From an uncultured Clostridia bacterium (GTDB lineage: Bacteria > Bacillota > Clostridia > Oscillospirales > Acutalibacteraceae): 64,000 nt of DNA. The notes under the pieces were generated by a model, which worked only from the letters and a program-made list of their open reading frames with translations, was not told where the DNA came from and ran no database searches. The stretch lies in assembly GCA_944376655.1 (NCBI GenBank), contig CALWDJ010000002.1, positions 30,664-94,663 of the forward strand. The letters are read 5' to 3'. Positions 39,001-52,839 of the stretch are shown here, piece after piece. The translations under genes were made by a program, and so were the position numbers. How positions within the stretch are numbered: the first letter of the stretch is position 1; every line of letters starts with the position of its first letter.

Positions 39001-39166
39001 AAAATATTTGCTGTGCATAACAGTAATTGGGTAGCAAGAGACGCTTGAATATGCAGCGCATTTTATCAAGTTTGTCCGATATGCTTCAGCGGAACAGATT
39101 TTATCCTTATTTATCCAGCCTTGTTGTGCTTATGTAATCCCTCTTTTATTTTTCGTGTTTTTATGG

Positions 39167-39350
39167 TATAATACAACGTTGGCATATTGTGTAGTTCGAT
39201 AAGTTCGTACAGTTCGCAAATTTTAAAAAAGTGACCTAATTCGTCAAACGGCAGTTTTTAACCGTTTTTCAAAAAAAGCAGAGTATGCAGTCTTGACGAA
39301 TTTGTGGCCTATAGGCGCACTTTTTACTACGAAAAAAGGAGGTTTTTGCT
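39167..39350 (+). promoter_or_regulatory. original uvrB promoter and 5' leader
   Basis: An extended -10, TGGTATAAT (TATAAT at 39167-39172), is followed just after the expected start by three copies of AGTTCG at 39193, 39202 and 39211 (9-base period). The leader then has GTGACCTAATTCGTCAA (39231-39247), whose second half is complementary to TTGACGAATT at 39294-39303. AAGGAGG precedes the GTG at 39351. The same leader pattern recurs before the intact uvrB. Confidence 0.6.
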
Positions 39351-39677
39351 GTGGATCATTTCGAATTGGTTGCCCCTTATGCGCCGACCGGAGACCAGCC
39401 GGAGGCAATCGCAAAACTAACCGTTGGTATCGAAAAAGGCTTTAAGGAGCAGGTTTTATTGGGTGTTACGGGTTCGGGCAAAACCTTCACGATGGCGAAT
39501 ATCATCGCCAATATAAACCGTCCTACGCTCGTCCTGGCGCACAATAAAACCCTGGCGGCTCAATTGTGCAGTGAATTTCGAGAGTTCTTCCCAAACAATG
39601 CAGTAGAGTATTTTGTCTCCTATGAGACCCGATATATCAAAAATCCTTTATTTATGCGGGTTTGCGGGACATCGTAA
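39351..39677 (+). pseudogene. uvrB: 5' fragment of uvrB left at the element boundary
   Basis: A GTG start with AAGGAGG opens a 108-residue frame. Its first 91 residues match UvrB, including the Walker A region [13 protein letters not shown] and [20 protein letters not shown]; after VEYFVSY the protein switches to unrelated sequence ([10 protein letters not shown]) and stops. Over the 80 residues shared with the intact uvrB at 50878 I count 6 differences, so this is a divergent homologous copy, not a recent duplication. The break coincides with the 21-bp repeat at 39603-39623. Promoter and ribosome site are intact, so a short UvrB N-terminal peptide may be made. Confidence 0.9.
39603..39623 (+). 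repeat. left attachment site (attL) of the integrative element
   Basis: This 21-base stretch of uvrB, beginning GTAGAGTATTTTGTC and ending CTCCTAT, is identical to 51133-51153. The sequence to its left matches uvrB imperfectly in both copies, and to its right the two copies share nothing. That is the pattern left by site-specific recombination at a short core. Confidence 0.8.
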
Positions 39678-39700
39678 CACGAAAAAACACATCGTAAAAC
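39669..39700 (+). repeat. direct repeats, possible integrase arm sites
   Basis: ACATCGTAACAC (39669-39680) and ACATCGTAAAAC (39689-39700) repeat with a 20-base period, two helical turns, 46 bases inside the left end. This is where tyrosine-recombinase or excisionase arm sites would be expected. Assignment is by position only. Confidence 0.4.
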
Positions 39701-39714
39701 AGCATAATTCAGAT

Positions 39715-39829
39715 AAAATTGTGACCTAAATTCGTGTAAATAAGTAATCGTAAGAAAATTTCTGAAAAATCGGTCCAAGTGTTCGAAATATCAAAAGAAC
39801 CATTTGATAAATGGCTTGCTAATCAGTAA
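39715..39829 (+). pseudogene. scar: piece of uvrB leader plus excisionase C-terminal remnant
   Basis: At 39719-39739 the motif GTGACCTAAATTCGTGTAAA repeats the start of both uvrB leaders but without the complementary half. It is followed at once by a frame open from 39740 to a TAA at 39827-39829 whose last residues read SVQVFEISKEPFDKWLANQ. That ending resembles the C-terminus of excisionase-type HTH proteins; compare SIRVPKVSFDNWLNG in the intact gene at 47879. Both pieces are truncated. They look like leftovers of an earlier element at the same site. Confidence 0.6.
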
Positions 39830-39836
39830 TGGAGTG

Positions 39837-39872
39837 AAAAAGGCAACAAGAATTTACTTGTGTTGCCTTTTT
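39837..39872 (+). terminator. terminator after the excisionase remnant
   Basis: AAAAAGGCAACA / TGTTGCCTTTTT is a perfect 12-bp inverted repeat ending in a T run, 7 bases after the remnant's stop codon. Confidence 0.85.
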
Positions 39873-40016
39873 CTTGTTTTAAATAATAGAACTACCTTGT
39901 GTTTGGTGTTATTATATTTTACATAGTAATTTAAACTTAAAGGAGCAACCTGCATGATAGAATGGATATGGGATGGTGAGATGAATTGTGGTTGTTAGAG
40001 TTTAGCTGCCTTTTAA

Positions 40017-40211
40017 AAAAATTGTGCTGTACATATACAAATATTAAACAAATACGATATTTTAATTAGTACAGATCATGAGGACACTAGCGTGGAAGAT
40101 ATTATAGATTATGGCGAAGATGATTATTTAGGATATCAAGCAGATGCTGCTGAAGTATACTATAAATTAATTATAACTTATAACAATATGGCCAAGGATG
40201 GCACAATATAG
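40017..40211 (+). pseudogene. short coding remnant of unknown family
   Basis: The + strand is open from 40017 to a TAG at 40211 and reads like real protein (YDILISTDHEDTSVEDIIDY, then GEDDYLGYQADAAEVYYKL) but has no start codon or ribosome site until a Met near the end. It is probably the tail of a lost accessory gene. It lies just beyond the 3' end of the leftward helicase gene. The remaining gap from 39880 to 40017 holds nothing recognisable. Confidence 0.35.
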
Positions 40212-40256
40212 AATAAAGATATGGACAAGATATTTCGCCTTGTGAATCTCTTTATG

Positions 40257-42206
40257 TCACTCTTGATATTTACAAAAGCCTAACGCTTCGACTTTTTTGC
40301 GTTGTTCGTCATTTAGTTGTGGCAATGCCCAGCAGAGTAGATGCTTTGGCCGTGTAGAGGCGACATATGCTATTCGGGTTATTTCTTGTTTGTCGTTTAG
40401 CCAGTTTTCCCAGTAACCTGCTTTTCCCGACGCATTTTGCGTTGAGACTAACATAACCGCTTCATAACTACAGCCCTTAGTGGCGTGTATAGTCTGTACT
40501 TTTACATTACTACATTCACAAAGGGTAATAATCTCGATGCGTAGATTTGCAGTGCCATTTGGAGTACGAAATGAAGCAGTTGAGGTGATATCATTTTTAA
40601 AAACATTTTGTGTGTGGTTGTAAATGATTTCGAGTACAAGTTTTTTCGCAGATTGATACCAAGAGGAATATGTTATATTTTCAAAATTGCTTACTGTGGT
40701 GTCAGCACATAAATCGTTTAGAATATCACGAAGTATTAAACGCCATTGATAAGCAGTGCATAATTCGCTTGGACAATAATACCTATCAGATCTTCCGGAT
40801 ACTTTTGACCACTTTTGAATTTGGTATCCGATAAATTGCAATGCCTTCATTTGATTACTTGGATTTCGTGTTCTCCACAATTGTATAGCATAAATAACAG
40901 GATGCTTAGAATAATCAACGGATTTGCTAGTGGAGAGTAGATTCTTATGATTGGAATTCCTAGTCAAAACAATTGCCGCCCCTAAATCAATATTAACTTT
41001 TTTCAGATATTCCTCAAAACATTGTATTACGTCACATTCGTTGTCATACTCAAAATACAGTGCATCATTTTCATTAAATAAACTATTTTCATTTCCGGTT
41101 AGTGGTGTTGATATACCTTGAAGCGTGCGGGATACATCGACAATTTTTTGCGTGCTTCTAAAATTATTACTTAGTCGCAGCGTTACAAAACTGTTTTCTT
41201 GAATATGCTTAGTTAATACTTCAGGAAGTGCATCCTTAAAGGAATAAATTGCTTGATTGAGATCGCCAATCAAATGAATACAGCTACCACCTTGTTGGAG
41301 CAATTTTAATATGCGAAGTTCCATCGCAGACAAATCTTGACATTCATCAATAAGGATCAAAGGAAATCTTTTTGCAATTTTGTTACGGATAGTTTCATTC
41401 CCTAAGCAACATACTGCTATAAAATTCATATCTTCAAATGTAGCAAATCCGTCATTCCAAAAAGACTTTTTGCATATTAAAACTTTATCAAGCAAATAAT
41501 TAAATTGAAATAAACCTGAATTTTTCTTTTTTTGTCTAAGTTCTTTAATTAATTGCTGCACATCTGGTTGTTTATAGAATTCAAGCAGCGAGATAGTACG
41601 CTCTCCTGAATGTATATGCCAAGATTTGGTACTAAGGTGAAAAGATAATTGATTTGCATAAATCTTTTTGGCTGGTGGCATTGGAAAGTTAACAGTGTAA
41701 TTATTGAGCCATTGGTTGTCGTATATATTTATGTTAGTATCTATAATTCTAAACGAAAGATCTTTGTTTGTATTTGTTTTATGATATACTGCAGAGCCAA
41801 ACTTCTGAGCAATGTATCCATGAACAAAACTGGTGAAAGTTCCAATGAAGTGGTTGTATGATAGTTGGTGCGGGTAAAAAAGAGCTACTCTGTCAAAAAT
41901 TGTTGCAGCGGCTTCGTTCGTAAAAGTCAAAACGGCTGTACCTGAATCTTTGTGTCTCCAATTACAAATTTCATATGCTGATTTCATGCCAAGAGCTTCA
42001 GTTTTTCCGCTACCTGCACAAGCCTCAAGATATGTGCACTGGTTGTTCGAAGATAAGATATAGTTTAGTTGTTCATCTGTTTTTTCTCTAATCTTACAAG
42101 TGTGAAACCTTTTGCATATATCATCTTTAAAATAAGGACAGTGCGCTATATCGTCAACATTGCAAAGTGTCTTCGATAATTTAGTTTGTTTCTCAGTTAT
42201 GATCAT
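40257..42206 (-). CDS. gajB: UvrD/PcrA-like superfamily 1 helicase, GajB of a Gabija-type system
   Basis: About 649 residues from the ATG at 42206 (GGGGGA upstream; a GTG 5 codons earlier is possible). SF1 helicase motifs appear in order: CTYLEACAGSGKTEALGM (Walker A), AVLTFTNEAAATIFDRV (Ia), LILIDECQDLSAMELRIL (Walker B), IHLIGDLNQAIYSF (III), LRLSNNFRSTQKIV (IV), VQTIHATKGCSYEAVML (V) and IAYVASTRPKHLLCW (VI). The start overlaps the end of the OLD nuclease gene by 14 bases, the usual gajA-gajB coupling. In Gabija, GajB is thought to act with the GajA nuclease complex against phage. The N-terminus has an extra Cys cluster (CPYFKDDICKRFHTC), which I do not know from GajB. It is longer than the roughly 500-residue Bacillus cereus GajB. 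Confidence 0.8.
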   Translation of the reverse strand: MIITEKQTKLSKTLCNVDDIAHCPYFKDDICKRFHTCKIREKTDEQLNYILSSNNQCTYLEACAGSGKTEALGMKSAYEICNWRHKDSGTAVLTFTNEAAATIFDRVALFYPHQLSYNHFIGTFTSFVHGYIAQKFGSAVYHKTNTNKDLSFRIIDTNINIYDNQWLNNYTVNFPMPPAKKIYANQLSFHLSTKSWHIHSGERTISLLEFYKQPDVQQLIKELRQKKKNSGLFQFNYLLDKVLICKKSFWNDGFATFEDMNFIAVCCLGNETIRNKIAKRFPLILIDECQDLSAMELRILKLLQQGGSCIHLIGDLNQAIYSFKDALPEVLTKHIQENSFVTLRLSNNFRSTQKIVDVSRTLQGISTPLTGNENSLFNENDALYFEYDNECDVIQCFEEYLKKVNIDLGAAIVLTRNSNHKNLLSTSKSVDYSKHPVIYAIQLWRTRNPSNQMKALQFIGYQIQKWSKVSGRSDRYYCPSELCTAYQWRLILRDILNDLCADTTVSNFENITYSSWYQSAKKLVLEIIYNHTQNVFKNDITSTASFRTPNGTANLRIEIITLCECSNVKVQTIHATKGCSYEAVMLVSTQNASGKAGYWENWLNDKQEITRIAYVASTRPKHLLCWALPQLNDEQRKKVEALGFCKYQE

Positions 42207-44031
42207 ATAATATTCCCCCACAAGCCCACAATACGGCTTCTTTTATGTATCTAGGGACAGTAAAATTATCATTGATATTTTGGGATAAGGCATAAGAAAA
42301 GATGCCTTTTCCTACTACTTCAATATGTTCATAAATAAATTGGCTATCTTTAGATAAATCTTCATCGTTTTCGTATTCACCATTTTTATCAATAATCTTT
42401 GTTAATTTTGTCAGTACAGTACCAGTTTTTTTTGGCCATATGCTTTTTAAAGCTGTTGCAAGAGCGACTGTATTATCAATTCCCAAGTCATATTCAAATG
42501 TTTTTAGTGGCGATATGTATAACTTGGTATATTCATTTTGATTTATCTCATCAAGATAACTTTTCATCGGGTTATGACAGGTCGGTGTAGAGTCTTTGGT
42601 TGGGAAAATATCCTTACCGGGATCCCGGTCGGTTAATCCGGCGCAGTAAATAGGAATATTAGAACCAGAAGACCCATCAAAATTGGCAAACAGTTTCATA
42701 AAATGCATAAAATTTATACCATTAATATTTATTACAGAAACACCCATTTCGTCTAATGAATCTCCAATGGCGGGCTTGCCGTTTTCTACAGCATACTTGT
42801 TGTGGTTTTTCAATACGATTTCTGCCAAATGAGGTATAAGCATAGCTTCAGCAATACCTTCAACAAGGATGATACCACGAGAAAATAGCATTGTAGACTT
42901 TGTAACATCAAGCCACCGATTAATATAGTCTAATGTGACGGTATTCCCGAAAATCTTATCATACATAGCGGTAGCAACAATTCTATCTGATTTCTCCGTA
43001 AGATGTATTAAGCGATTGATATTTACAGAAGATGCGAGAACTGGTGAATGAGTGGAAACTATAATTTGTGCATTTGATAGAGATTCAGAAAGAGATTGAA
43101 GGTATTTAACAAACTTAATTTGTAGCTGTGGATGTAAATGCGCTTCAGGTTCTTCAATCAACAAAACAGTGAAAATATTGGAATCTTTAATCAATTCCAA
43201 CTCAGAAAAAACGGTAGCAATATACAACAAATTGTTATAACCTAAGCTATTTGTGGCTAAGTCGCGGAACTTTTCAATATTGGTTTCGCCACTATGCGGA
43301 AAAAAGACCATGCGAATATTCTCGATAATTTTATTAAATGTTATTTCAGAAAACTGTAAGTTTATGCTCTGTCCAAGCTGAGAGCCAAGTGCATCTTTGA
43401 TTTTAGTGTTGATTGTTGATTTGATCATATCAATTTCTTTGTACTGCCCATCAGCGTTTTCTGTAATTCGATTATTAAAGTTTCTAAAACTATCTACTAG
43501 GGAATCTGCATTGTTACCATATTGTTTTTTTAATAGAAGTGCGAGGCGGGATCGCTTGCCGTTTGAAAGTTTTGACTCGGCATCACGTAGAGGAGGTAAG
43601 TAAATACACTCAACACGATCAAAAGCGTCTTCCTCAAATATGCTGGCAGTAGAATTTCCACCCCAATATTTTCTTTTGAAATACCCAGGACGAGAAATGT
43701 TTTCTGATATGGATAAGTGTAAATGAGCATTGAAATTAGCATCACACCATGTAAGAAAAGTAATAGTTTCATTGTCTGTTAGTTCGGAAAAATCAGCATC
43801 AATTTCTATTTCGCTATCCTTATAAGATTTATCTAGAGAACAATAAAAATCGTCTGTATTAAGAGAAGAGTAAGATTCGTTTTCACGTAAAATCAATCTT
43901 AAAGCATTTATTATGGTCGTTTTACCACAACCATTTTCACCAAGAAGAATATTAAGTCCACGTTGCAGTGGAATCTCAGAAAGATTATGTGAGTTTTTAT
44001 ATCCCTTAAGGGAAAGCTTTGAAATATACAA
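42193..44031 (-). CDS. gajA: OLD-family ATPase-TOPRIM endonuclease, GajA of a Gabija-type system
   Basis: 612 residues. The N-terminal ABC-type ATPase has MYISKLSLKGYKNSHN, Walker A GLNILLGENGCGKTTIIN, and the signature/Walker B stretch LLIEEPEAHLHPQLQIKF with IVSTHSPVLASS after it. The C-terminal TOPRIM nuclease domain starts near residue 375 with SRGIILVEGIAEAMLIPHL (metal-binding Glu) and carries TDRDPGKD (the DxD pair). This is the class 2 OLD layout, in which the nuclease gene is followed by a UvrD-like helicase, and that pairing defines Gabija. GajA nicks DNA when nucleotide levels fall during infection. It is the third gene of a four-gene leftward operon, 16 bases after the small partner gene. 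Confidence 0.85.
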   Translation of the reverse strand: MYISKLSLKGYKNSHNLSEIPLQRGLNILLGENGCGKTTIINALRLILRENESYSSLNTDDFYCSLDKSYKDSEIEIDADFSELTDNETITFLTWCDANFNAHLHLSISENISRPGYFKRKYWGGNSTASIFEEDAFDRVECIYLPPLRDAESKLSNGKRSRLALLLKKQYGNNADSLVDSFRNFNNRITENADGQYKEIDMIKSTINTKIKDALGSQLGQSINLQFSEITFNKIIENIRMVFFPHSGETNIEKFRDLATNSLGYNNLLYIATVFSELELIKDSNIFTVLLIEEPEAHLHPQLQIKFVKYLQSLSESLSNAQIIVSTHSPVLASSVNINRLIHLTEKSDRIVATAMYDKIFGNTVTLDYINRWLDVTKSTMLFSRGIILVEGIAEAMLIPHLAEIVLKNHNKYAVENGKPAIGDSLDEMGVSVININGINFMHFMKLFANFDGSSGSNIPIYCAGLTDRDPGKDIFPTKDSTPTCHNPMKSYLDEINQNEYTKLYISPLKTFEYDLGIDNTVALATALKSIWPKKTGTVLTKLTKIIDKNGEYENDEDLSKDSQFIYEHIEVVGKGIFSYALSQNINDNFTVPRYIKEAVLWACGGILYDHN

Positions 44032-44047
44032 TTTAATTTCTCCCTTG

Positions 44048-44470
44048 TTAATTTTTCCTTTTATAGATCTCTTTTAAATCATCGATAGCCATATTAACAC
44101 TTAAAGTGTGAAATCCAAGCCAGCTTTGATTCATCATTTCAGGGCTAGCTATTTTGTATATTTCTTTACTTGACTCGCCGGTATAATAATGCCAATAGCG
44201 ATAGGTATAACCTGTCCAATACATGACTTCATTGTGATAGGTTTGACCTGCAGGAGGCAGCCCCCCAACTTCGTCGTTGAGCTCTTCCAGTATATATTCC
44301 TCGCCGGCCCATTGAAGTCGGTCATAGGTGTCATCTAAAGCAAGTGCAACATTGCTGTTCATAAATGCTTTGATAAACTCCGGGGAATCGTAGCCATTTT
44401 TTAATGCCAGTTCAAATAAGCGCCCTTGTATATCACACATTTGAAGTTGTAATTTATTAAGTTTGCTCAT
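44048..44470 (-). CDS. small partner of the DUF3990 protein, candidate antitoxin
   Basis: 140 residues. It contains SPEFIKAFMNSNVALALDD and YDRLQWAGEEYILEELNDE, which resembles the YD.LH..GEEYI..DI pattern of DUF3791, the usual neighbour of DUF3990. The rest is aromatic-rich (MYWTGYTYRYWHYYTGESSK; MNQSWLGFHTLSVNMAIDDL). The gene begins 2 bases after the end of the HTH-DUF3990 gene and ends 16 bases before gajA, so it is translated from the same message. An antitoxin role is inferred from pairing. I am not certain that it belongs to DUF3791 proper. Confidence 0.6.
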   Translation of the reverse strand: MSKLNKLQLQMCDIQGRLFELALKNGYDSPEFIKAFMNSNVALALDDTYDRLQWAGEEYILEELNDEVGGLPPAGQTYHNEVMYWTGYTYRYWHYYTGESSKEIYKIASPEMMNQSWLGFHTLSVNMAIDDLKEIYKRKN

Positions 44471-44472
44471 GG

Positions 44473-45321
44473 TTATTCACCAGCCTTTATAATTTCATCG
44501 AAAAATAAACCTTCCCGACGATATTTTATACAAATTTCGTTTGCTAATGCGATTCCTTTAGTTCTATTATCTTCGCTAGTACTTTTTAAGGTTTTACGAT
44601 CTTTATCGCTGAGCGTTTTCGCTTCAATAATTTCAATTTGTTTACATGCCTTTTCAGTTAAAGCTACATATTGTTTGCCTAACTTAAGTGCAGATAAGCT
44701 GTTAATTAATGCAATATCGGTAATTTCACCGTTAAAGAATCTATCCAGTACTACAAACATTCTGTCATTGGCGATAAAACCTATGATCATATCACAGTCT
44801 TTTGACATTTCAGCAATTCGATTATAAATTGCTGTACCTTTTGCAGATTCTATTTTCCCACGGTTAAAGGCAACCAGTAATGCCCAATCAATACCAACTT
44901 CAATATCCAGTATTTTAAGCCCAGTTAAATCAACTTTAATGGTATATAACTTGGCATCAGGATAATTGCAGATAAGAGTCAATGGCTGGGTTTTATCTGT
45001 CCCCATATAAAAGCCTTTACCAAAGTCGCATCTATCTCGGCTTTTGGGTTCTATCGTTCCGTTAATGCCGGATTTTGAACCATGATAAAGGGTAATGGAG
45101 CCGTTACCAATGATATAGTGGTTACCTTCAAATTGAGCAAAGTCAATCTTATTATGATCACATAATCTTTTTATTGCTTTCAAAGCGATCTGAGAAGGCT
45201 CGCAGTGTCCTTTTTCCCAACGGTTAACCGTAGCAAAACTAACGCCCAGTTTTTCTGCGAGTTGAGATTGACTTATATTCAATTTTACACGAATAGATTT
45301 TATAATATCCGAATTTTTCAT
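44473..45321 (-). CDS. HTH-DUF3990 protein, ADP-ribosyltransferase-like candidate toxin
   Basis: 282 residues from the ATG at 45321, which has GAGGTG 5 bases upstream; the frame extends 4 codons further. Residues 1-57 are an Xre-type helix-turn-helix (KLNISQSQLAEKLGVSFATVNRWEKG). From about residue 75 it is DUF3990: ITLYHGSKSGI, CDFGKGFYMGTDKTQPL, WALLVAFNRGK, CDMIIGFIANDRMFVVLDRF and QYVALTEKACKQIEI. LYHGS and DFGKGFY match the NAD-binding motifs of this ADP-ribosyltransferase-like family. Here the DNA-binding domain is on the catalytic protein, so it may repress its own operon. It is the first gene of the operon that continues into gajAB. Confidence 0.8.
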   Translation of the reverse strand: MKNSDIIKSIRVKLNISQSQLAEKLGVSFATVNRWEKGHCEPSQIALKAIKRLCDHNKIDFAQFEGNHYIIGNGSITLYHGSKSGINGTIEPKSRDRCDFGKGFYMGTDKTQPLTLICNYPDAKLYTIKVDLTGLKILDIEVGIDWALLVAFNRGKIESAKGTAIYNRIAEMSKDCDMIIGFIANDRMFVVLDRFFNGEITDIALINSLSALKLGKQYVALTEKACKQIEIIEAKTLSDKDRKTLKSTSEDNRTKGIALANEICIKYRREGLFFDEIIKAGE

Positions 45322-45349
45322 AAAACACCTCATTTAACAATTATAACAT

Positions 45350-45390
45350 TTGTGTGCTTAAATTATAACATAGTTTATTTTGCAATTCAA
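45350..45390 (-). promoter_or_regulatory. promoter of the toxin-Gabija operon with repeat element
   Basis: On the minus strand TTGAAT (45385-45390) and TATAAT (45362-45367) are 17 bases apart, a near-ideal pair. Immediately downstream is TAAGCACACAA (45350-45360), which recurs at 45879-45889 and, inverted, at 45960-45970. A second GTTATAAT follows at about 45340-45347. The repeats overlap the start of transcription and could be an operator for the HTH protein. Confidence 0.65.
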
Positions 45391-45447
45391 TAAGAATTAA
45401 TAAATTTAATTTAGTTAAGCATTAAAAATATTGTCGATGATTTAAAT

Positions 45448-45493
45448 AAGAAATGCGGAGTTTGATTTGTAAAAATCAGGCTCCGCATTTCTT
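45448..45493. terminator. terminator-like hairpin between divergent units
   Basis: AAGAAATGCGGAG / CTCCGCATTTCTT is a perfect 13-bp stem with a 20-base loop; TTTT follows within two bases on the + strand. It lies between the leftward toxin-Gabija promoter and the structured region to its right, and could end an antisense or leftward transcript. Confidence 0.65.
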
Positions 45494-45504
45494 TTCATTT
45501 AGGT

Positions 45505-45990
45505 GAGAAAAAATTTTTGAAAAAATTTTTTTAAAACTATGCATATTTTTCCCGATTTTTGACGTTAGGTGAGGAAAGTAATTTCCGAGAACTTTTAAAA
45601 CTGAATATACATCACACAGGCACATTACCTGTAATCCGAGCCGTAAAGCGGGTGCGCCGGGATCTTCCGAAAGGAATGTAGCGATAAACACCTTCACTTT
45701 GTTATTTGTCGGCAGACAAAGAGGCGATGACGGTTACAGGGGATAATGATACTTCCGTAATTCGCGGTCGGTCCATAAAGAAGGAGCGAGGGTGAGACTC
45801 CCATGGAGCTGTTTGCATCAGCCACCTGTGTTGTTCCCGTTACATCCGGGGTGTTGAGGACAAATAGGATGTACTGCCTAAGCACACAATTGATTGTAAA
45901 ACTTGTGTGCCATTGATTAAAAGTAAAGCGAAACACCTGGTTCCGTCAATGTTGGTTGATTGTGTGCTTAGGTGGTAATACGAAAAAGGT
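45505..45990 (+). ncRNA. candidate large structured RNA upstream of the ParB-like gene
   Basis: About 480 bases without a credible coding frame on the + strand but rich in hairpins. GGAAA-GTAA-TTTCC (about 45573-45586) and TTCC-GAAA-GGAA (45665-45676) both carry GNRA-type tetraloops readable only on the + strand. TTTGTC-GGCA-GACAAA (about 45705-45720) is a perfect 6-bp hairpin. ACAGG/CCTGT, a GGG..CTCCC hairpin near 45790-45803 and a long-range 14-bp repeat (45877-45890 with 45959-45972) add to it. No intron splice landmarks or known riboswitch consensus were recognised. It may be a free RNA or a long regulatory leader. Confidence 0.5.
45877..45972 (+). repeat. 14-bp inverted repeat before the ParB-like gene
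   Basis: CCTAAGCACACAAT at 45877-45890 and ATTGTGTGCTTAGG at 45959-45972 are perfect inverse complements. A shorter copy TTGTGTGC at 45904-45910 can compete for the left arm. That allows two alternative pairings just upstream of the gene at 45995, as in attenuators. The core also occurs at the toxin-Gabija promoter. Confidence 0.75.
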
Positions 45991-45994
45991 GGTA

Positions 45995-46918
45995 ATGATG
46001 TTGGAATATGAACTGAAGATAAATCCGGAGTTCGAGGAGATTATTCCTCCTATCAGTCCGGATGAATTTACACAACTGGAGGATAACATTGTTGCCGAAG
46101 GTGAATTGCTGATGCCCATTATCATCTGGAAAGGCTTCATTATTGACGGACACAGCAGATATAAGATTTTACAAAAGCATCCGGAAATAGAATGTAAGAT
46201 TATTGAAAAGCATTTTGAGGACAAATATGAGGCGATCGCATGGATATGCAAAAATCAAATTGGAGGCCGAAACCTTTCTGAAAGATATATAAAATATCTC
46301 CGTGGAAAGCAATACGAAGCCGAGAAAAAGAGCTGTAAATTTCACGGAAACCAGTACACTTTAGCTAAAGAAAGTGGTCTGGGTTATTTTAACCCAGACC
46401 ACAATATACACGGAACACGTACAGCATTAGCAGAGAAAAACGGAGTTTCTGAAAGTATGATACGCTATTCGCAGGAATTCAGCCGAGGGCTTGACGCTGC
46501 GGAAGAAGTGCTTCCGGGAATCAGAAAAGAAGTGCTTAACGGCACGATAAATCCGACTGACCAGGCAATCAAAGGAATTGCCAGGCTGCCGATGGAAAAA
46601 AGAAAAGATGCAGCGGAAAGACTTCGTACTCTGACGGATAGGCGAAGTTTGCCCCGTAACAAAATAAAGGTGCAAAGCGTAGACCGCATTGCTCCGGATA
46701 CAGAAGCGGATTCGGTTTCCTGTGTAAATGAGGAGGACATTATCAACTCAATAGGAGCCGCAGTCGGCGATCTGATTGATCTTTGCAACAATTATTTTAC
46801 GCGGTTTCCTAAATTGCTTTCTGATGAGCGGTATCAGCGAAAAACAATGGAAGCTCTTAATGAGTTTCGGATATATATATCAAAAATAGAGAGGAAGAAC
46901 ACATATGACAGCAACTAA
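45995..46918 (+). CDS. ParB-like nuclease-domain protein of mobile-element type
   Basis: About 307 residues from ATG 45995 (or the adjacent ATG 45998) after AAGGTGG. The N-terminus ELKINPEFEEIIPPISPDEF then QLEDNIVAEGELLMPIIIW and GFIIDGHSRYKI is the ParB N-terminal domain as found in integrative elements and plasmids of Clostridia. GGRNLSERYIKYL and a central HTH-like part follow (RTALAEKNGVSESMIRYS). It probably binds element DNA and regulates element genes; a partition role would need a ParA, and none is present. It overlaps the next gene by 14 bases. Confidence 0.8.
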   Translation: MMLEYELKINPEFEEIIPPISPDEFTQLEDNIVAEGELLMPIIIWKGFIIDGHSRYKILQKHPEIECKIIEKHFEDKYEAIAWICKNQIGGRNLSERYIKYLRGKQYEAEKKSCKFHGNQYTLAKESGLGYFNPDHNIHGTRTALAEKNGVSESMIRYSQEFSRGLDAAEEVLPGIRKEVLNGTINPTDQAIKGIARLPMEKRKDAAERLRTLTDRRSLPRNKIKVQSVDRIAPDTEADSVSCVNEEDIINSIGAAVGDLIDLCNNYFTRFPKLLSDERYQRKTMEALNEFRIYISKIERKNTYDSN

Positions 46919-47453
46919 AAATTCAGTATATAAGCTTGAAACCATAGACAGCAGCAAAATTTTAACTGCTATTTCACAGTATCAGAGACAAACAGATTCA
47001 ACAAGAGCAAATGACATTGCTGCGCATTTCGATGAAAGAATAGCCAACGAGCCTAAAGTAAGCTTCCGCGACGGAAAATACTTTGTTTTTGACGGTCAGC
47101 ATACAATTCTTGCAAGAATTAAGCTTAACGGCGGCAAGCACCTTCCTGTTCTGTGCAAGGTCTATTACGATCTTTCAGCGGAAGACGAAGCGTTTCTTTT
47201 TGCGGCGCAGACGGGATTATCGAGCAAATTGACATCAGGTGAAAAACTTCGTGCAAAGGCTTTTTCAAATGACCGAACTGCCATTGATTTTATTGAGGCA
47301 AACAGCAAGGCAGGAATTGATGTGAGCTTGTCAAATAGTGTAGGGAAATACCGCCTGCGCTGTGTTTCAACCGCGTTTGACGAGTTTCAGAGGCTTGGAT
47401 ATAAAAAGTACATTAATGAGCGCTCAATTTATTTTAAACATAGCGAGGAATAA
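46905..47453 (+). CDS. DUF6551-like ParB-fold protein, probably truncated
   Basis: 182 residues. It shows ISQYQRQTDSTRANDIAAHFD, then FDGQHTILARIKLNGGKHLP and FLFAAQTGLSSKLTSGEKLR, matching DUF6551-type proteins that accompany the ParB-like gene in such elements. Relatives are longer as I recall them. Here the frame ends just after YKKYINERSIYFKHSEE, and a different frame continues with an unrelated HTH segment, so a deletion may have removed the C-terminus. It is coupled to the ParB-like gene by overlap. Confidence 0.65.
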   Translation: MTATKNSVYKLETIDSSKILTAISQYQRQTDSTRANDIAAHFDERIANEPKVSFRDGKYFVFDGQHTILARIKLNGGKHLPVLCKVYYDLSAEDEAFLFAAQTGLSSKLTSGEKLRAKAFSNDRTAIDFIEANSKAGIDVSLSNSVGKYRLRCVSTAFDEFQRLGYKKYINERSIYFKHSEE

Positions 47454-47640
47454 ACTCTCAGACATTCAATTAAGAAGATTTTTAAGCCACTATGTTGGCG
47501 GAAAAAAAGAAGAAGAAATTGCAAAAGATGAGGGTGTTTGTCAAAGCACAATTTCAAGGTCAATATCAGGCGCTGAAAATAAAATCAAGAAAATTATCAG
47601 AAAACTATGCATAAAAAACGATATTTTTGACGTTATATAG
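47416..47640 (+). CDS. sigma-70 region 4-like HTH protein, N-terminally truncated
   Basis: The frame overlaps the end of the DUF6551-like gene. The C-terminal 60 residues read as a helix-turn-helix of sigma region 4 type: SHYVGGKKEEEIAKDEGVCQ followed by STISRSISGAENKIKKII. The part before about 47440 belongs to DNA shared with the preceding gene and no ribosome site precedes the ATG at 47416. It looks like the distal end of a small sigma-factor-like gene fused by deletion to its neighbour. It may be inactive. Confidence 0.45.
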   Translation: MSAQFILNIARNKLSDIQLRRFLSHYVGGKKEEEIAKDEGVCQSTISRSISGAENKIKKIIRKLCIKNDIFDVI

Positions 47641-47666
47641 AGAACCGTTTGAGAGGAATGAAAGAA

Positions 47667-47864
47667 ATGATATTGACATTATGCCATAAATGCTTGAACA
47701 ATTTTCTGTCAAGACCTAAGACAAAAGTGCACAGAACAGATTATCTTCAAATAGAAAAAGAGCCATGCTGTTATTGTCAGGTTCGTCTCGGATTTGATTA
47801 TGAAATAGAAGATAACGTTTTGTCAAGTGTGCGAAATGTTGGCTTGCACAATGGAAAAATATAA
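47667..47864 (+). CDS. small cysteine-rich protein of mobile elements
   Basis: 65 residues from ATG 47667 (MILTLCHKCLNNFLS); upstream TTG and ATG codons are possible but crowd the AGAGG site. Four Cys in two pairs (CHKC near the start and CCYC in the middle), then VRLGFDYEIED, suggest a zinc-binding fold. Similar small proteins with CxxC...EPC.YC patterns sit beside ParB-like and integrase genes in Clostridia elements. Function unknown. The stop overlaps the next gene's possible ATG (TAATG). Confidence 0.6.
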   Translation: MILTLCHKCLNNFLSRPKTKVHRTDYLQIEKEPCCYCQVRLGFDYEIEDNVLSSVRNVGLHNGKI

Positions 47865-47878
47865 TGGAGTGTAATAGT

Positions 47879-48109
47879 ATGAATACGCCGAATAAAGAGT
47901 GTATGTTGAACGATGAAACAAATAAAATGGTTTACAATGTTGAGGATATACAAAAGCTGTTGTCACTTGGAAGGAACAGTACATACGCTTTACTTGATAA
48001 GGTATACAAAGAACAGAAGCCTTTTAAGGTGTTGAAATTCGGGAAATCGATTCGTGTGCCGAAAGTATCTTTTGATAATTGGTTGAACGGAAAGGATGAT
48101 AACATATGA
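47879..48109 (+). CDS. xis: excisionase-type helix-turn-helix protein
   Basis: 76 residues from ATG 47879, which has GGAG 9 bases upstream; ATG 47864 is in frame. The core MVYNVEDIQKLLSLGRNSTY then ALLDK and FKVLKFGKSIRVPKVSFDNWL is a MerR-like winged HTH of the excisionase/HTH_17 type. It overlaps the first recombinase gene by 4 bases, the usual xis-int arrangement, and should direct excision of the element. Compare the degraded C-terminus at 39740-39829, which ends in a similar FDKWL motif. Confidence 0.78.
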   Translation: MNTPNKECMLNDETNKMVYNVEDIQKLLSLGRNSTYALLDKVYKEQKPFKVLKFGKSIRVPKVSFDNWLNGKDDNI

Positions 48110-49332
48110 GGGCATATGACAATTACAAGCTTAAAGAAAGTGTTTCAAATCGCAAACCGAAAAAGCACAGTGTGGCATTTTTTGAGCGAGGTTCATGGTA
48201 TCATCGAACAAAATCCATTGATGGTAACGGCAAAATAAAATACGGCAAGAAAGGCGGTTTTGCATCACAAAAAGAGGCTGAAGAAAATTATTGGCGGTGT
48301 CTTGAGGAGTTTGAAAAAAGCTGCTTGTCGATGGCAGAAAGAAACAGCGGAAATATCACATTGGGTAATTATTTGAAAATTTGGTTTGAAAAGGACTTTT
48401 CACCTTTGATACGGAATACCACGAGAATGGTAATGGCTCATATGATATATGATATTATACTGAAAAATATTCAAAATGAAATTAAGCTTTCGCTTGTAAA
48501 CGTTGATTATCTTGATGCACTCCTGCTTCAGTGCTCCAAAAGTTCTCCGTCAGCCGGTAACAAATGCCGAGAGGTTCTCAGTATTGCCTTCAAGCACGCA
48601 CTCGTGGAAGGATATATAAAATCAAATCCTATGCCGGGCACCAGACCTTACAAGCGTAATAAACCTAAAATTACTATATATAATAAGGCAGAGGTTAAAC
48701 AATTCCTTTTATTTGCCAAAGAAAATTCATGGTATTTGGAGATATTGCTGGCGTTGTTTTGCGGACTGAGAAAAGGAGAGATTTTAGGCTTAAAATTCAA
48801 TGATTTCAACACCGAAGATGAAACAGTTACAATTAAGCGCCAGCTTGCCGCTAACCCTATAATACCTCCTGAAAGCGGAAGCAAAATCACTAAATATGAA
48901 TTGACGGAACGCCCGCCTAAAACTCCTAACAGTCTTCGCAAATTGAAAATTCCGAAGGTAATCATTGATGAATTAGTACGAAGAAAAGAAAGAATAGAAA
49001 ACAATAAGGCGAAATATAAGGATAAGTACAACGATTTCAATTATATAAGTTGTCAGGAAAACGGAAGCCCTCATAGTATGAGTGCTTTTAATACTGCTTT
49101 GAATAAGCTTTGTAAAAAGGCGTCCTTACCAGCAATTTCCGTTCACGGATTAAGGCATATGTATGCTACTATATTGATTGAAAACGGAGCAAGCTTATCG
49201 AAGATATCGGCCTTGCTGGGTCATAGTTCAATAAATACAACCTTTGAATACTACTGCGATATATCAGATGAAAGCGATAATATTAAAGCATTTTTGGATA
49301 ACACATTTATTCCGGAGGAGGAAGTTAATTGA
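48106..49332 (+). CDS. tyrosine recombinase (integrase 1)
   Basis: 408 residues. An N-terminal AP2-like arm-binding part (KHSVAFFERGSWYHRTKSID) and a core-binding domain (LGNYLKIWFEKDFSPLIRNT) precede the catalytic domain from about residue 200. Catalytic residues seen: Arg in LFCGLRKGEILGLKF, HGLRHMYA (HxxR), GHSSINTTFEYYC (His and the nucleophile Tyr). All five look intact. It overlaps both xis and the second recombinase gene (ATGA at its start). Together with uvrB-targeted junctions it is a candidate for the enzyme that moves the element. Confidence 0.88.
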   Translation: MRAYDNYKLKESVSNRKPKKHSVAFFERGSWYHRTKSIDGNGKIKYGKKGGFASQKEAEENYWRCLEEFEKSCLSMAERNSGNITLGNYLKIWFEKDFSPLIRNTTRMVMAHMIYDIILKNIQNEIKLSLVNVDYLDALLLQCSKSSPSAGNKCREVLSIAFKHALVEGYIKSNPMPGTRPYKRNKPKITIYNKAEVKQFLLFAKENSWYLEILLALFCGLRKGEILGLKFNDFNTEDETVTIKRQLAANPIIPPESGSKITKYELTERPPKTPNSLRKLKIPKVIIDELVRRKERIENNKAKYKDKYNDFNYISCQENGSPHSMSAFNTALNKLCKKASLPAISVHGLRHMYATILIENGASLSKISALLGHSSINTTFEYYCDISDESDNIKAFLDNTFIPEEEVN

Positions 49333-50618
49333 CAGAAGCAAAAAACATAATTGAACATAAGGTTTATAATATTATCAAAGTAAAGAAGAAATACGGATTT
49401 CGAGTTTTGCTGCGCTTTGATGATGGTACAGAAGAAATAAGACAGTTTTCCGGCTTTGCAACAAAGAAGGATGCAAACAGTGAACGGGAAAAAACAATTG
49501 CACAGCTAGTTACAAAGACATTTATTGTTCCAAAGAAGCAATCTGTATCAAACTTTTTAGCAGAATGGCTTGAAACAGATATAAAGGTTCGGACAACGGC
49601 AAATACCTATTACTCCTATAAAAATGCAATAAAGAATCATATTTTGCCCATCCTGGGCAAAATGTACATAACAGACCTGACGCGTGTACATATTAAAAAT
49701 ATGTATATTGCTATTGCAGAAAAATCTCATACTATGGCGCAAGTCGTCAAAAATATAATGAACATCTCTATGCAATATGCAGTTAACAAAGGCTTTGTTT
49801 TTGATAATCCAGCCAAAGGTGTTCCATTGCCGAAGAGTGTTGCTCAAGATCTTTATCATACAAGAACAATTAAGGAAAGCAACACATTAAACTTAGAGCA
49901 GATTGTTATTCTGATAAATGCAAGCCGAGGTACGGGAATTTATATGCAAGTGCTTTTTGCAGTGCTTATGGGCTTACGCAGAGGAGAAATAAACGGGCTG
50001 AAATACAGTGATGTTGACTTTGTTCGCCAAAAGCTTCACGTTTCAAGACAATTGGGAAGAGCAGCGAATTCAGAAGATACCGTGGTTGCGCCAAAAACAA
50101 GAACAAAGCAGGAAATCAAACTTAAAACAAAGTCAAGCAACAGAATACTTGATATACCTGATTTTGTTTTTGAGGAAATATTAAAATCCCGGGAGCAGTA
50201 CGAAAGAAATAGAAGCAGACGAAGCAATTTATTTCAGGACTTGGATTATATATGCTGTTCGAGCTATGGGCGGCCTCGCAGTATGCAATATCATTTTGAA
50301 TCTTTTAAGGAGATTTTGAAAAAAAGCGGTCTGCCGAATATCAGATGGCATGATTTGAGACACAGTTATGCAACGCTGCTTATGAAAAATGACTTTAATT
50401 TAAAGGCAATTTCCAAGATACTCGGTCACGCAAAAGAAATAGTGACAGCTGATATCTATGTAGATAATCAGGAAATCATTGCAGACGGAGTAAGTGAACT
50501 CAGCGAATATATGAATGAAGTAATACCGGAAAAATCCGTCGATTTCAATGAAAAGGAAAATGTATTTGATTACAGTTATATTGATGTGACTGCTGCGTTC
50601 GACAGTTTAACAACATAA
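49329..50618 (+). CDS. tyrosine recombinase (integrase 2)
   Basis: 429 residues starting at TTG 49329, with GGAGGAAG placed 5 bases upstream and a TTGA overlap with integrase 1. It has an arm-binding region (KKYGFRVLLRFDDGTEEIRQ), a core-binding region (VSNFLAEWLETDIKVRTTAN) and an intact catalytic set: MGLRRGEINGLKY, WHDLRHSYATLL, GHAKEIVTADIYVD. It is related to integrase 1 in plan but clearly divergent. Two overlapping recombinases may act together, or one may be a passenger. It is the last gene before the element-borne uvrB promoter. Confidence 0.88.
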   Translation: MTEAKNIIEHKVYNIIKVKKKYGFRVLLRFDDGTEEIRQFSGFATKKDANSEREKTIAQLVTKTFIVPKKQSVSNFLAEWLETDIKVRTTANTYYSYKNAIKNHILPILGKMYITDLTRVHIKNMYIAIAEKSHTMAQVVKNIMNISMQYAVNKGFVFDNPAKGVPLPKSVAQDLYHTRTIKESNTLNLEQIVILINASRGTGIYMQVLFAVLMGLRRGEINGLKYSDVDFVRQKLHVSRQLGRAANSEDTVVAPKTRTKQEIKLKTKSSNRILDIPDFVFEEILKSREQYERNRSRRSNLFQDLDYICCSSYGRPRSMQYHFESFKEILKKSGLPNIRWHDLRHSYATLLMKNDFNLKAISKILGHAKEIVTADIYVDNQEIIADGVSELSEYMNEVIPEKSVDFNEKENVFDYSYIDVTAAFDSLTT

Positions 50619-50628
50619 GTATATTAGC

Positions 50629-50654
50629 GGGGCAGCACAGAAAACGCTGCTCCC
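50629..50654. terminator. hairpin after the recombinase genes
   Basis: GGGGCAGC / GCTGCTCC makes an 8-bp stem (one G-T pair) 11 bases after the integrase 2 stop. No T run follows on the + strand, so termination may be weak. Confidence 0.45.
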
Positions 50655-50660
50655 GATATA

Positions 50661-50877
50661 TTTACAATTTAATTTTTTTATGCTAAAATAATTTAACGAA
50701 CATTATACTGTTTTATTGTGTATTACGGTGTTGGAATTTCCCATTAAAGCATAAATTTGTGACCAAAATTCGTGTAATACCATATAGGACAGATTTCAGA
50801 GCCGATTTTAAAGAAATAATTACACGAATTTTTTCTGTGTTATTGGCCTATATTGATCATATTAAGAGGATGAGAAT
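50661..50877 (+). promoter_or_regulatory. element-borne uvrB promoter and structured leader
   Basis: TTTACA (50661-50666) and TAAAAT (50684-50689) are 17 bases apart. Further on GTGACCAAAATTCGTGTAAT (50760-50779) is complementary over its last 14 bases to ATTACACGAATTTT at about 50820-50833, then TTGGCCTATA follows as GTGGCCTATA does in the left copy. The leader therefore keeps the same fold as the leader at 39231-39310 with different paired bases. The ATG at 50878 is preceded by GAGGATGAGAAT. Confidence 0.6.
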
Positions 50878-52839
50878 ATGCCGGACAAGTTTATTTTACA
50901 TTCAAATTATAAGCCTACGGGCGACCAGCCGGAGGCAATTCAAAAACTCACCGAAGGGGTTGAAAAAGGCTTTACAGAGCAGGTTTTACTGGGTGTTACA
51001 GGTTCGGGAAAAACTTTTACAATGGCAAATATTATCGCCAATGTCAACCGCCCGACGCTTGTTCTCGCTCACAACAAAACACTCGCCGCACAACTTTGCA
51101 GTGAGTTCAGAGAATTCTTCCCTGAGAATGCGGTAGAGTATTTTGTCTCCTATTATGATTACTATCAGCCTGAAGCCTATATACCGGGAACCGACACATA
51201 TATCGAAAAGGATTCGGCGATAAACGATGAAATCGATAAGCTGCGCCATTCCGCCACCTGCGCTCTCTCTGAACGGCGCGACGTTATAATTGTGGCGAGC
51301 GTGTCCTGCATTTATTCGCTCGGAGATCCTATCGATTATAAGAATATGGTAATATCGCTGCGCACCGGAATGGAAAAAAGCCGTGACGAGCTGCTTGCGA
51401 AGCTCGTTGACCTTCAGTACGAGAGAAACGATATAAATTTTGTGCGGAACAAATTCAGAGTCAGGGGAGACACGGTAGAGATTTTTCCGGCAAACGCCTA
51501 CGAAAACGCCGTCCGTGTAGAATTTTTCGGTGACGAGATAGACCGCATAAGCGAGATAAACACGGTAACGGGAGAAATCAAGGCGATTCTATCGCATACG
51601 GCTATATATCCGGCGTCGCATTATATCGTGTCGCATGATAAGCTGGAGGAGGCGATAAAGGAAATAAAGGACGAGCTTGAGGAACGTGTCGCGTATTTTA
51701 CCGAAAACGGACAGCTTATTGAGGCTCAGCGCATACGTCAGCGAACCGAATACGATATTGAGATGCTGCGTGAAATAGGCACCTGCAAGGGCGTTGAGAA
51801 TTACTCAAGAGTGCTGTCGCGCAGAAAACCCGGAAGCGTTCCGTCCACCTTGCTTGATTACTTTCCGGACGATTTTCTGCTTTTTGTCGATGAGTCGCAC
51901 GTTACGCTGCCGCAGGTGAGGGGAATGTATGGCGGAGACCGGGCGCGCAAGGAAAACCTTGTGAAATACGGATTCAGACTGCCGTCGGCTTTTGATAACA
52001 GACCGCTTAATTTTGAGGAGTTTTACAGTCATATAAATCAGGCGGTTTTCGTCTCGGCAACGCCGGGAGATTTCGAGAAGCAGCACGCGGCGCAGATTGT
52101 CGAGCAGGTAATTCGCCCGACCGGACTGCTTGACCCGAAGATTTCGGTAAGACCGAGCGAGGGGCAGATCGACGATCTCGTTTCCGAAATAAATATACGC
52201 ACCGGCAGGGGAGAACGCGTGCTGGTCACTACGCTTACCAAAAAAATGGCGGAGGATCTAACCGAGTATCTCGGAGGGCTTTCTGTTAAGGTAAGGTATA
52301 TGCATTACGATATTGACACTATGGAGCGTATGGAGATAATACGTGATCTGCGCCTCGGCGAATTTGACGTTCTTGTGGGAATCAACCTTCTGCGTGAGGG
52401 CCTCGATATTCCGGAGGTTTCGCTTGTGGTCATACTTGATGCCGACAAGGAAGGCTTCCTGCGCAGCGAGACGTCGCTTGTTCAGACGGTGGGACGCGCG
52501 GCGAGAAACGCAGAGGGCGAGGTTATAATGTATGCTGACAGCGTTACTCCGTCAATGGAAAGGGCGATAACCGAAACCGAGAGAAGACGCTCCATTCAGG
52601 AAAAATACAATAAAGAACACGGAATAGTTCCGAAAACCGTAATAAAAGACGTGAGGGATATTATTGAGATAGGCACAAAGGTGAAAAACGAGAAGCCTGT
52701 ATCAAAGATGTCAAGACTTGAGCGTGAGGCTGAAATCAAGCGCCTGACCGCCGAAATGAAGCAGGCGGCAAAGATACTTGAGTTTGAGCACGCGGCGTAT
52801 TTGAGGGATAAAATCAACAAATTAAGAGAAGGAAAATAA
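50878..52839 (+). CDS. uvrB: UvrB, excinuclease ABC subunit B
   Basis: 653 residues, full length. It has [12 protein letters not shown], Walker [34 protein letters not shown] (beta-hairpin that clamps DNA), [20 protein letters not shown] (DExH-like), [38 protein letters not shown] and QTVGRAARN, and a C-terminal UVR domain ([20 protein letters not shown]). UvrB verifies damage delivered by UvrA and recruits UvrC in nucleotide excision repair. Codons 1-92 lie on the element side of the attR junction at 51133-51153, so the present gene is a chimera of element-borne 5' end and original 3' part, with uninterrupted reading frame. No uvrA or uvrC lies nearby. Confidence 0.97.
51133..51153 (+). repeat. 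right attachment site (attR) of the integrative element
   Basis: Identical over 21 bases to 39603-39623 and situated at codons 86-92 of uvrB, in the sequence encoding VEYFVSY. Rightwards the native uvrB continues (YDYYQPEAY). The element is bounded by these repeats, about 11.5 kb apart. Confidence 0.8.

Follow-up and report, generated by a model that had tools for sequence, protein, structure and literature searches.

Mobile elements that integrate within the 5' part of a gene and equip it with a new promoter and N-terminus have been described for prfC and dusA (PMC4344509, PMC8409611). The SXT/R391 integrative and conjugative elements use the 5' end of prfC as their site (PMC4344509), and for the dusA-specific islands, which include IMEVchUSA3, expression was tested by lacZ fusion (PMC8409611). 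We analysed a locus in a 64,000-nucleotide stretch of an uncultured Clostridia bacterium of the Acutalibacteraceae (hereafter the window; GCA_944376655.1, part of contig 2 of a 2.0-Mb draft genome in 55 contigs), where a truncated and a complete uvrB flank a set of other genes. By analogy, the DNA between them would work like SXT at prfC and the dusA islands. From the comparison of sequences we consider it, with a probability of roughly 0.85, to be an 11.5-kb integrative element of the tyrosine-recombinase type, placed at uvrB codons 86-92 and replacing the promoter and the first ~92 codons of the gene. That an element enters uvrB and supplies a new promoter and start was already the reading of the initial annotation of this DNA; it is supported by a recurrent junction, by uninterrupted uvrB in the same genus and by divergence at third codon positions, the import itself being likely. 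The annotation had also called such an integration unusual, which needs tempering, as elements that rebuild the start of a gene are known from prfC and dusA; the uvrB target does look new, and we found no literature on uvrB as such an integration site among open-licence PMC papers.

The window element differs from SXT/R391 in the gene, the phylum, the presence of two recombinases, the ~92 codons involved and the lack of any recognised conjugation gene, and the uvrB site additionally has small relatives without recombinases. In the dusA islands the N-terminus of dusA is described as changed over 35 residues, with the junction before codon 40, and IMEVchUSA3 as mobilised by IncC plasmids (PMC8409611). 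SpyCI of Streptococcus pyogenes likewise has a specific site at the start of a gene for DNA repair, mutL, but it separates mutL from its promoter, leading to a mutator phenotype (PMC3430984), whereas the window has an intact uvrB behind the element. Relative to the prfC and dusA kind, the target, the hosts and a layer of cassettes look new. More than one tyrosine recombinase is found in strand-biased circularizing integrative elements and in other multi-recombinase elements; the window element differs from these in its choice of target and in the rebuilding of a gene.

The uvrB copies, the ends of the element and its putative recombination genes are as follows.

39351-39623, + strand: truncated 5' part of uvrB on the left side of the element, codons 1 to about 92 (GTG start; residues 3-92 are 87% identical in amino acids to the intact copy)
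39603-39623, + strand: proposed attL core, ending the left fragment; its 21 bp recur unchanged at 51133-51153
39624-39717, + strand: left arm with TAACAC-type repeats, alignable to related loci (arm plus motif 92.5% identical to the related locus RUG10806)
39718-39740, + strand: signature motif TTTGTGACCTAAATTCGTGTAAT, left copy, 2 mismatches
47864-48109, + strand: excisionase-like HTH_17 gene (Pfam 6.1e-05, below the cut-off; a 76% identical relative at the same position in RUG10806)
48106-49332, + strand: int1, tyrosine recombinase with R-H-R-H-Y (profile matches and catalytic residues)
49329-50618, + strand: int2, tyrosine recombinase with R-H-R-H-Y (profile matches and catalytic residues)
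50661-50689, + strand: promoter-like TTTACA-17-TAAAAT at the right end, reading into uvrB (score 10/12; shuffles average 2.1 sites)
50756-50778, + strand: signature motif, right copy, 1 mismatch
50765-50778 and 50819-50832, no strand: arms of a perfect 14-bp inverted repeat (similar repeats in some related right ends)
50878-51153, + strand: uvrB codons 1-92, taken as supplied by the element on sequence comparison
51133-51153, + strand: proposed attR core within uvrB, codons 86-92
51154-52839, + strand: chromosomal remainder of uvrB (UvrB equivalog match)

The complete uvrB (50878-52839) encodes 653 amino acids and matches the NCBIfam UvrB equivalog at 1084 bits (cut-off 743). About 11.5 kb separates the two 21-bp blocks, which form an att-like direct repeat at both ends, one copy lying in the intact uvrB and the other ending the truncated start. 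Direct reading agrees with the initial annotation on the fragment at 39351, the complete gene at 50878 and the identical blocks, and also on the point that beyond the block only the second copy goes on as uvrB. Its count of 6 differing residues in 80 is too low, since over codons 4-88 the copies differ at 12 of 85 residues and, in the DNA, at 60 of 255 positions, with no stop. An alignment of the 5' ends covers 247 nt with 81% identity, and the frame of the left fragment stays open until a stop at 39675-39677. Judged by the sequences, the shared 21 bp is not due to chance, because the block ends the homologous stretch and the junction recurs in other genomes. In an alignment to a solved UvrB structure the block encodes the conserved VEYFVSY, directly before YDYYQPEAY, and this conservation would explain how a single target can serve many species. 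The excisionase and two tyrosine recombinases that had been placed just inside the right end are there, the excisionase being identified by a weak HTH_17 match and by position, and 259 bp lie between the end of int2 and the start codon of uvrB.

The same site is occupied in many related genomes (G numbers denote genomes, L numbers loci). Among 300 genomes of the same family, counting the one that holds the window, 9 show two or three matches to the first 93 UvrB residues at E <= 1e-20. The regions fetched share a common plan. A uvrB fragment up to codon ~91 is followed by an arm of roughly 100 bp and the motif TTTGTGACCTAAATTCGTGTAAT; further genes come next, in many cases with a second motif behind them, and a complete uvrB closes the arrangement. 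With up to 2 mismatches allowed, 8 of the 12 genomes chosen carry the motif and none carries its reversed control; the match in G198 lies on a contig without uvrB. A scan of ~85,000 species genomes by exact pattern matches, which undercounts variants, yielded 49 stretches in 43 genomes; 48 stretches bear titles of the Clostridia type, the remaining one that of Muribaculaceae. Viral contigs gave 0 matches to the motif. A uvrB match lies within 46 of the 49 stretches (weakly, at 41.5%, in L171); the others are L132, whose contig bears a full uvrB further on (L208), L161 and L172. L161 is the Muribaculaceae-titled contig, possibly misbinned, with the motif and no uvrB in the stretch. Two or more N-terminal uvrB matches (E <= 1e-5) are present in 22 of the 37 genomes newly reached by the scan.

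The initial annotation had proposed to look for related genomes with an uninterrupted uvrB and for other elements ending in its codon 92, and both exist: element-free uvrB genes, among them those of G066 and G180 from the same genus as the window, continue unbroken across the block region, and many genomes have insertions that start at this codon and continue with a related arm. The order GH36-uvrB-hydrolase that it expected was not found in the 20 loci examined; in the relative L149 the uvrB fragment is immediately preceded by a GH36 match (40%). Another genome of the genus, G254 (L071, L072), has an intact uvrB without the motif and, on another contig, a degenerate uvrB fragment with a different arm, possibly an old insertion.

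The junction is sharp. In 18 loci where both copies span codon 80, left and right copies agree at codon 92 at positions 1 and 2 in 17 loci and at position 3 in 5, and at codon 94 at positions 1, 2 and 3 in 1, 11 and 3 loci, respectively (the left copy of L069 has a small deletion). Left arms could be aligned for 34 fragments and include TAACAC-type repeats as well as the motif; the fit is poor for L072 and L185, and the spacing is different in arms of the Lachnospiraceae type. By eye the arm gives an immediate stop codon after codon 91 in 21 of the 34 rows. Behind these arrangements uvrB is kept: where it adjoins a fragment, a motif or a recombinase, it is intact in 36 of 38 cases, and the other 2 are cut by the end of a contig or region.

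Two classes of occupants were distinguished. Both recombinases lie directly upstream of uvrB in seven mapped loci, namely the window, RUG10806, RGIG8690 and four others, with catalytic residues kept in six of the seven and altered in L180. The second class is small, often 0.7-3 kb, and has no match to the window's recombinases. Its cargo includes membrane-type proteins, a GH5 cellulase-family enzyme (L067), a KDPG-aldolase with a DGOK kinase (L069), a leucine-rich-repeat protein (L125, L170, L213), an alpha-L-rhamnosidase (L181), RhuM-family proteins and genes without a Pfam match. The cargo set comprises 95 proteins of at least 120 amino acids (L177 left out), 76 of which were scanned; the families given are at least those among the first 25 of 65 and the first 25 of 46. 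Four of the 76 match Pfam RhuM and four the PADLOC candidates PDC-S05 and PDC-S23; RhuM-like genes recur as cargo in the Lachnospiraceae-type cassettes L182, L185, L187, L192 and L193. In some small cassettes (L066, L069, L181, L185, L188) the right motif is absent and cargo reaches the uvrB ribosome-binding site. Some genomes carry tandem units, G302 having three uvrB fragments ahead of the intact gene. Cis-mobilizable elements (CIMEs) are att-flanked DNA without a recombinase of its own, in tandem beside related elements. The cassettes appear to be of this type, being att-flanked, without recombination genes and sharing their site with a complete element to which they are related; many occupants of the uvrB site differ from CIMEs in being one or two genes before a rebuilt host gene. 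In Clostridia the uvrB site is occupied repeatedly, both by related elements that bring recombinases and by small cassettes that have none.

Fragments and intact genes were compared for 23 fragments, leaving out those with fewer than 20 comparable codons and L190, which has no full uvrB. Mismatches at codon positions 1, 2 and 3 number 237, 142 and 739 (739 of 1118 at the third), and 22 of the 23 fragments are free of stops. The two starts differ by 13-39% in 19 fragments and are 91-95% alike in the other four (L067, L125, L181, L189). Because mismatches at third positions dominate and stops are nearly absent, the two starts are, to judge from this pattern, orthologues that have been brought together rather than the products of a duplication that is decaying.

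These data suggest the following mechanism. A circular form would carry, beside the recombinase genes, the promoter, the arm region and uvrB codons 1-92, ending in the core. Through the action of int1 and int2, the core would recombine with the chromosomal uvrB, so that the old start would remain behind, truncated, on the left side, and the start brought by the element would be fused to the chromosomal remainder, giving an intact hybrid uvrB expressed from the element's own promoter. The element would presumably also excise. Small cassettes without recombinases may depend on recombinases acting in trans.

It is likely that the start came in together with the element. Between the window and RUG10806, int1 and int2 are 79-81% identical at the nucleotide level and uvrB codons 1-91 are 87% identical, against 78% for the remainder of the gene. 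G168, which has the motif upstream, and its congener G049, which has none, are 85% identical in the start and 90-96% beyond it. In G132 the leftmost fragment is 95% identical to the congener G286 over 177 nt, as against 72% for the intact G132 start.

Several results weigh against this import or the model behind it. The excess divergence between G168 and G049 lies mainly in codons 3-42 (28 mismatches, against 10 in codons 43-82) and does not extend evenly to codon 92, and the congener comparisons G186/G075, G252/G058, G139/G004 and G225 were neutral. A group test for mosaic genes, limited to pairs with a 3' identity of at least 0.78 (16 element-free, 16 with an element), showed no difference between the two groups in how far the identity of the start departs from that of the rest (p = 0.44); extreme values of -0.09 or lower occurred in 0 of 16 element-free and 6 of 16 element pairs (Fisher test, 0.018), the cut having been chosen after seeing the data. 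Rank correlations of uvrB 5' against 3' parts, computed with the Lachnospiraceae-type loci and five others set aside, failed to tell element-bearing genomes from those free of elements. G254 entered the mosaic, correlation and LexA (see below) tests as an element-free genome despite the second uvrB fragment on its other contig. The leftmost uvrB remnant of G132 (L069, 6210-6934) has a broken frame near codon 30 and extends past the usual end at codon 92 to codon 247, which the simple model does not predict. All named comparison records are titled as metagenome-assembled genomes, and no circle, excision or recombination was observed. In all six pairs of loci that share a cassette (three of them from one trio), the cargo is 87-97% identical and uvrB codons 46-88 only 72-77%, about like the remainder of the gene; the uvrB piece would then not have travelled with the cargo, or would have been replaced afterwards.

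This last pattern could be explained by a system of two layers, which is compatible with an integrative element in the window and which we regard as possible, although doubtful. Recombinase elements would carry a uvrB start, while small cassettes would enter and leave a resident platform through the GTGACC motif and a mimic of the core, with the recombinase supplied in trans, somewhat as in integrons. In keeping with this, cargo is common to the six pairs without a common uvrB start, one- or two-gene cargo and tandem units occur, and a core mimic, GAATATTTTGT...TTACGATTAC, altered at a few positions in some of them, immediately precedes the right motif of small cassettes in L065, L070, L073, L125, L170, L175, L189 and L213. 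The cargo breaks on the left near the motif in L070/L174, and on the right near the mimic GAATATTTTGT in L170/L213 and, by eye, in L070/L174. However, motif and mimic acting as recombination sites of their own would leave the same pattern as homologous recombination through the conserved arms, or as a uvrB start that was converted later; the arms are alike between loci whatever the cargo, which makes breakpoints hard to place; and no cargo-free platform was present among the mapped loci, no search having been made elsewhere. The right end of the G139 cassette (L070, near 5200) contains, by eye, an inverted copy resembling the left arm, which suggests an older rearranged end. One might speculate further, with slightly less confidence still, that uvrB codons 86-92 and the upstream arm are a chromosomal docking platform of Clostridia. 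Small cassettes, most of them lacking recombinases, would gather there in an integron-like manner and pass from species to species by way of the GTGACC motif or the core mimic, with recombinases acting in trans, and the promoter would be retaken by each complete element.

A target duplication, in which the insertion doubled the first 92 codons of the host and left one copy to decay without bringing any uvrB, is improbable. The four fragments that are 91-95% like their intact gene would suit it, as would the shared cassettes that come with uvrB starts at the level of the host. Yet 19 fragments are more divergent, and over all 23 two thirds of the mismatches fall at third positions with nearly no stops, which points to selection on both starts while they diverged; the stop-free differences in the window fit as well, a selected short peptide from the left fragment being another route to such a pattern. 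An assembly artefact that merged two uvrB-bearing strains in one contig is very unlikely, in spite of the 55-contig draft and the metagenomic titles of all scan records, as the same arrangement, arm and motif occur in independent assemblies from different animals and an erroneous join would not recur at codon 92.

The integrative element, as we read it, carries seven further genes.

40257-42221, - strand: gajB, UvrD-like helicase of the Gabija system (PADLOC GajB, 2.1e-158)
42193-44031, - strand: gajA, OLD-family ATPase/TOPRIM protein of the Gabija system (PADLOC GajA, 4.9e-201)
44048-44470, - strand: DUF3791 protein (PDC-M42B match, 4.8e-09)
44473-45333, - strand: HTH and DUF3990 protein (Pfam/PADLOC scan)
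45956-46918, + strand: protein without a Pfam or NCBIfam match (weak PHROGs methyltransferase-family match)
46905-47453, + strand: DUF6551 protein (ParB-like by PHROGs)
47362-47640, + strand: short sigma/antitermination-Q-like HTH protein (all matches weak)

The adjacent, overlapping gajA and gajB on one strand have the Gabija arrangement; the pair is cargo only, and nothing unusual was noticed in it. The HTH-DUF3990 gene has an 84% identical counterpart in L209 (317-1165), a uvrB locus with more distant recombinases, and may be a module for maintenance or defence. No conjugation gene was found among the 10 element proteins (Pfam and PADLOC, 8 of them also PHROGs; smaller reading frames were left unscanned and SetCD was not searched by name). 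Phage structural genes were likewise absent among 8 proteins compared with PHROGs and 10 with Pfam, which gives no ground for calling the element a prophage. The recombinases are not integron integrases, int1 scoring 43.9 bits and int2 27.6 bits against TIGR02249 (cut-off 265). Matches of int2 in 154 plasmid and 1526 phage records are all below 60% identity, the best 8 of each reaching at most 30.3%, and no carrier was found among them.

As to regulation, the TTTACA-17-TAAAAT site would be a promoter of the rebuilt uvrB; sites of this type are no more numerous than in shuffled sequence, and TATAAT-type boxes stand, by eye, at the equivalent place of the right end in several relatives. The predicted uvrB leader gave no signal of RNA structure (z 0.25). 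For the left copy, which the initial annotation had credited with its promoter, a scan of 39000-39370 gave no sigma-70-like site on the + strand, yet there is a TATAAT at 39167-39172. The same region upstream of the left fragment holds one more feature.

39231-39302, no strand: variant arm GTGACCTAATTCGTCAA...TTGACGAATT (resembles the right end of the element locus L208)

Across 243 loci the pattern of this variant arm occurs only in copies of the window's place and in L208, with L209 and L183 resembling it by eye; it may be the trace of an earlier insertion, the site having then been used before. A uvrA match lies within 1.5 kb behind uvrB in 24 of the 32 element loci with room for it; RUG10806 has uvrA there, confirmed by Pfam, and the window lacks one. 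Of 26 entries without an element, 8 have a LexA-like box (GAACN4GTTC, up to 1 mismatch) upstream of uvrB, where 2.0 would be expected; of 29 entries with an element none has one, where 1.7 would be expected. The 26 entries hold three genomes twice (L009/L080, L012/L081, L016/L082); per genome the counts are 7 of 23 and 0 of 29 (Fisher test, 0.0018), with no exact box and the idea being post hoc, and loss of the box with the element is only a lead.

Gene-rebuilding elements are known for prfC and dusA, and the target here is a core excision-repair gene. If our reading is true, control of a repair gene passes to mobile DNA, which also swaps the segment from its start through Walker A to the edge of a conserved stretch. 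It then becomes testable whether resident mobile DNA alters the response to damage, and why a heterologous N-terminus is tolerated. The uvrB site also serves as a finder of cargo, which is Gabija in the window and RhuM-type, metabolic and unknown genes elsewhere.

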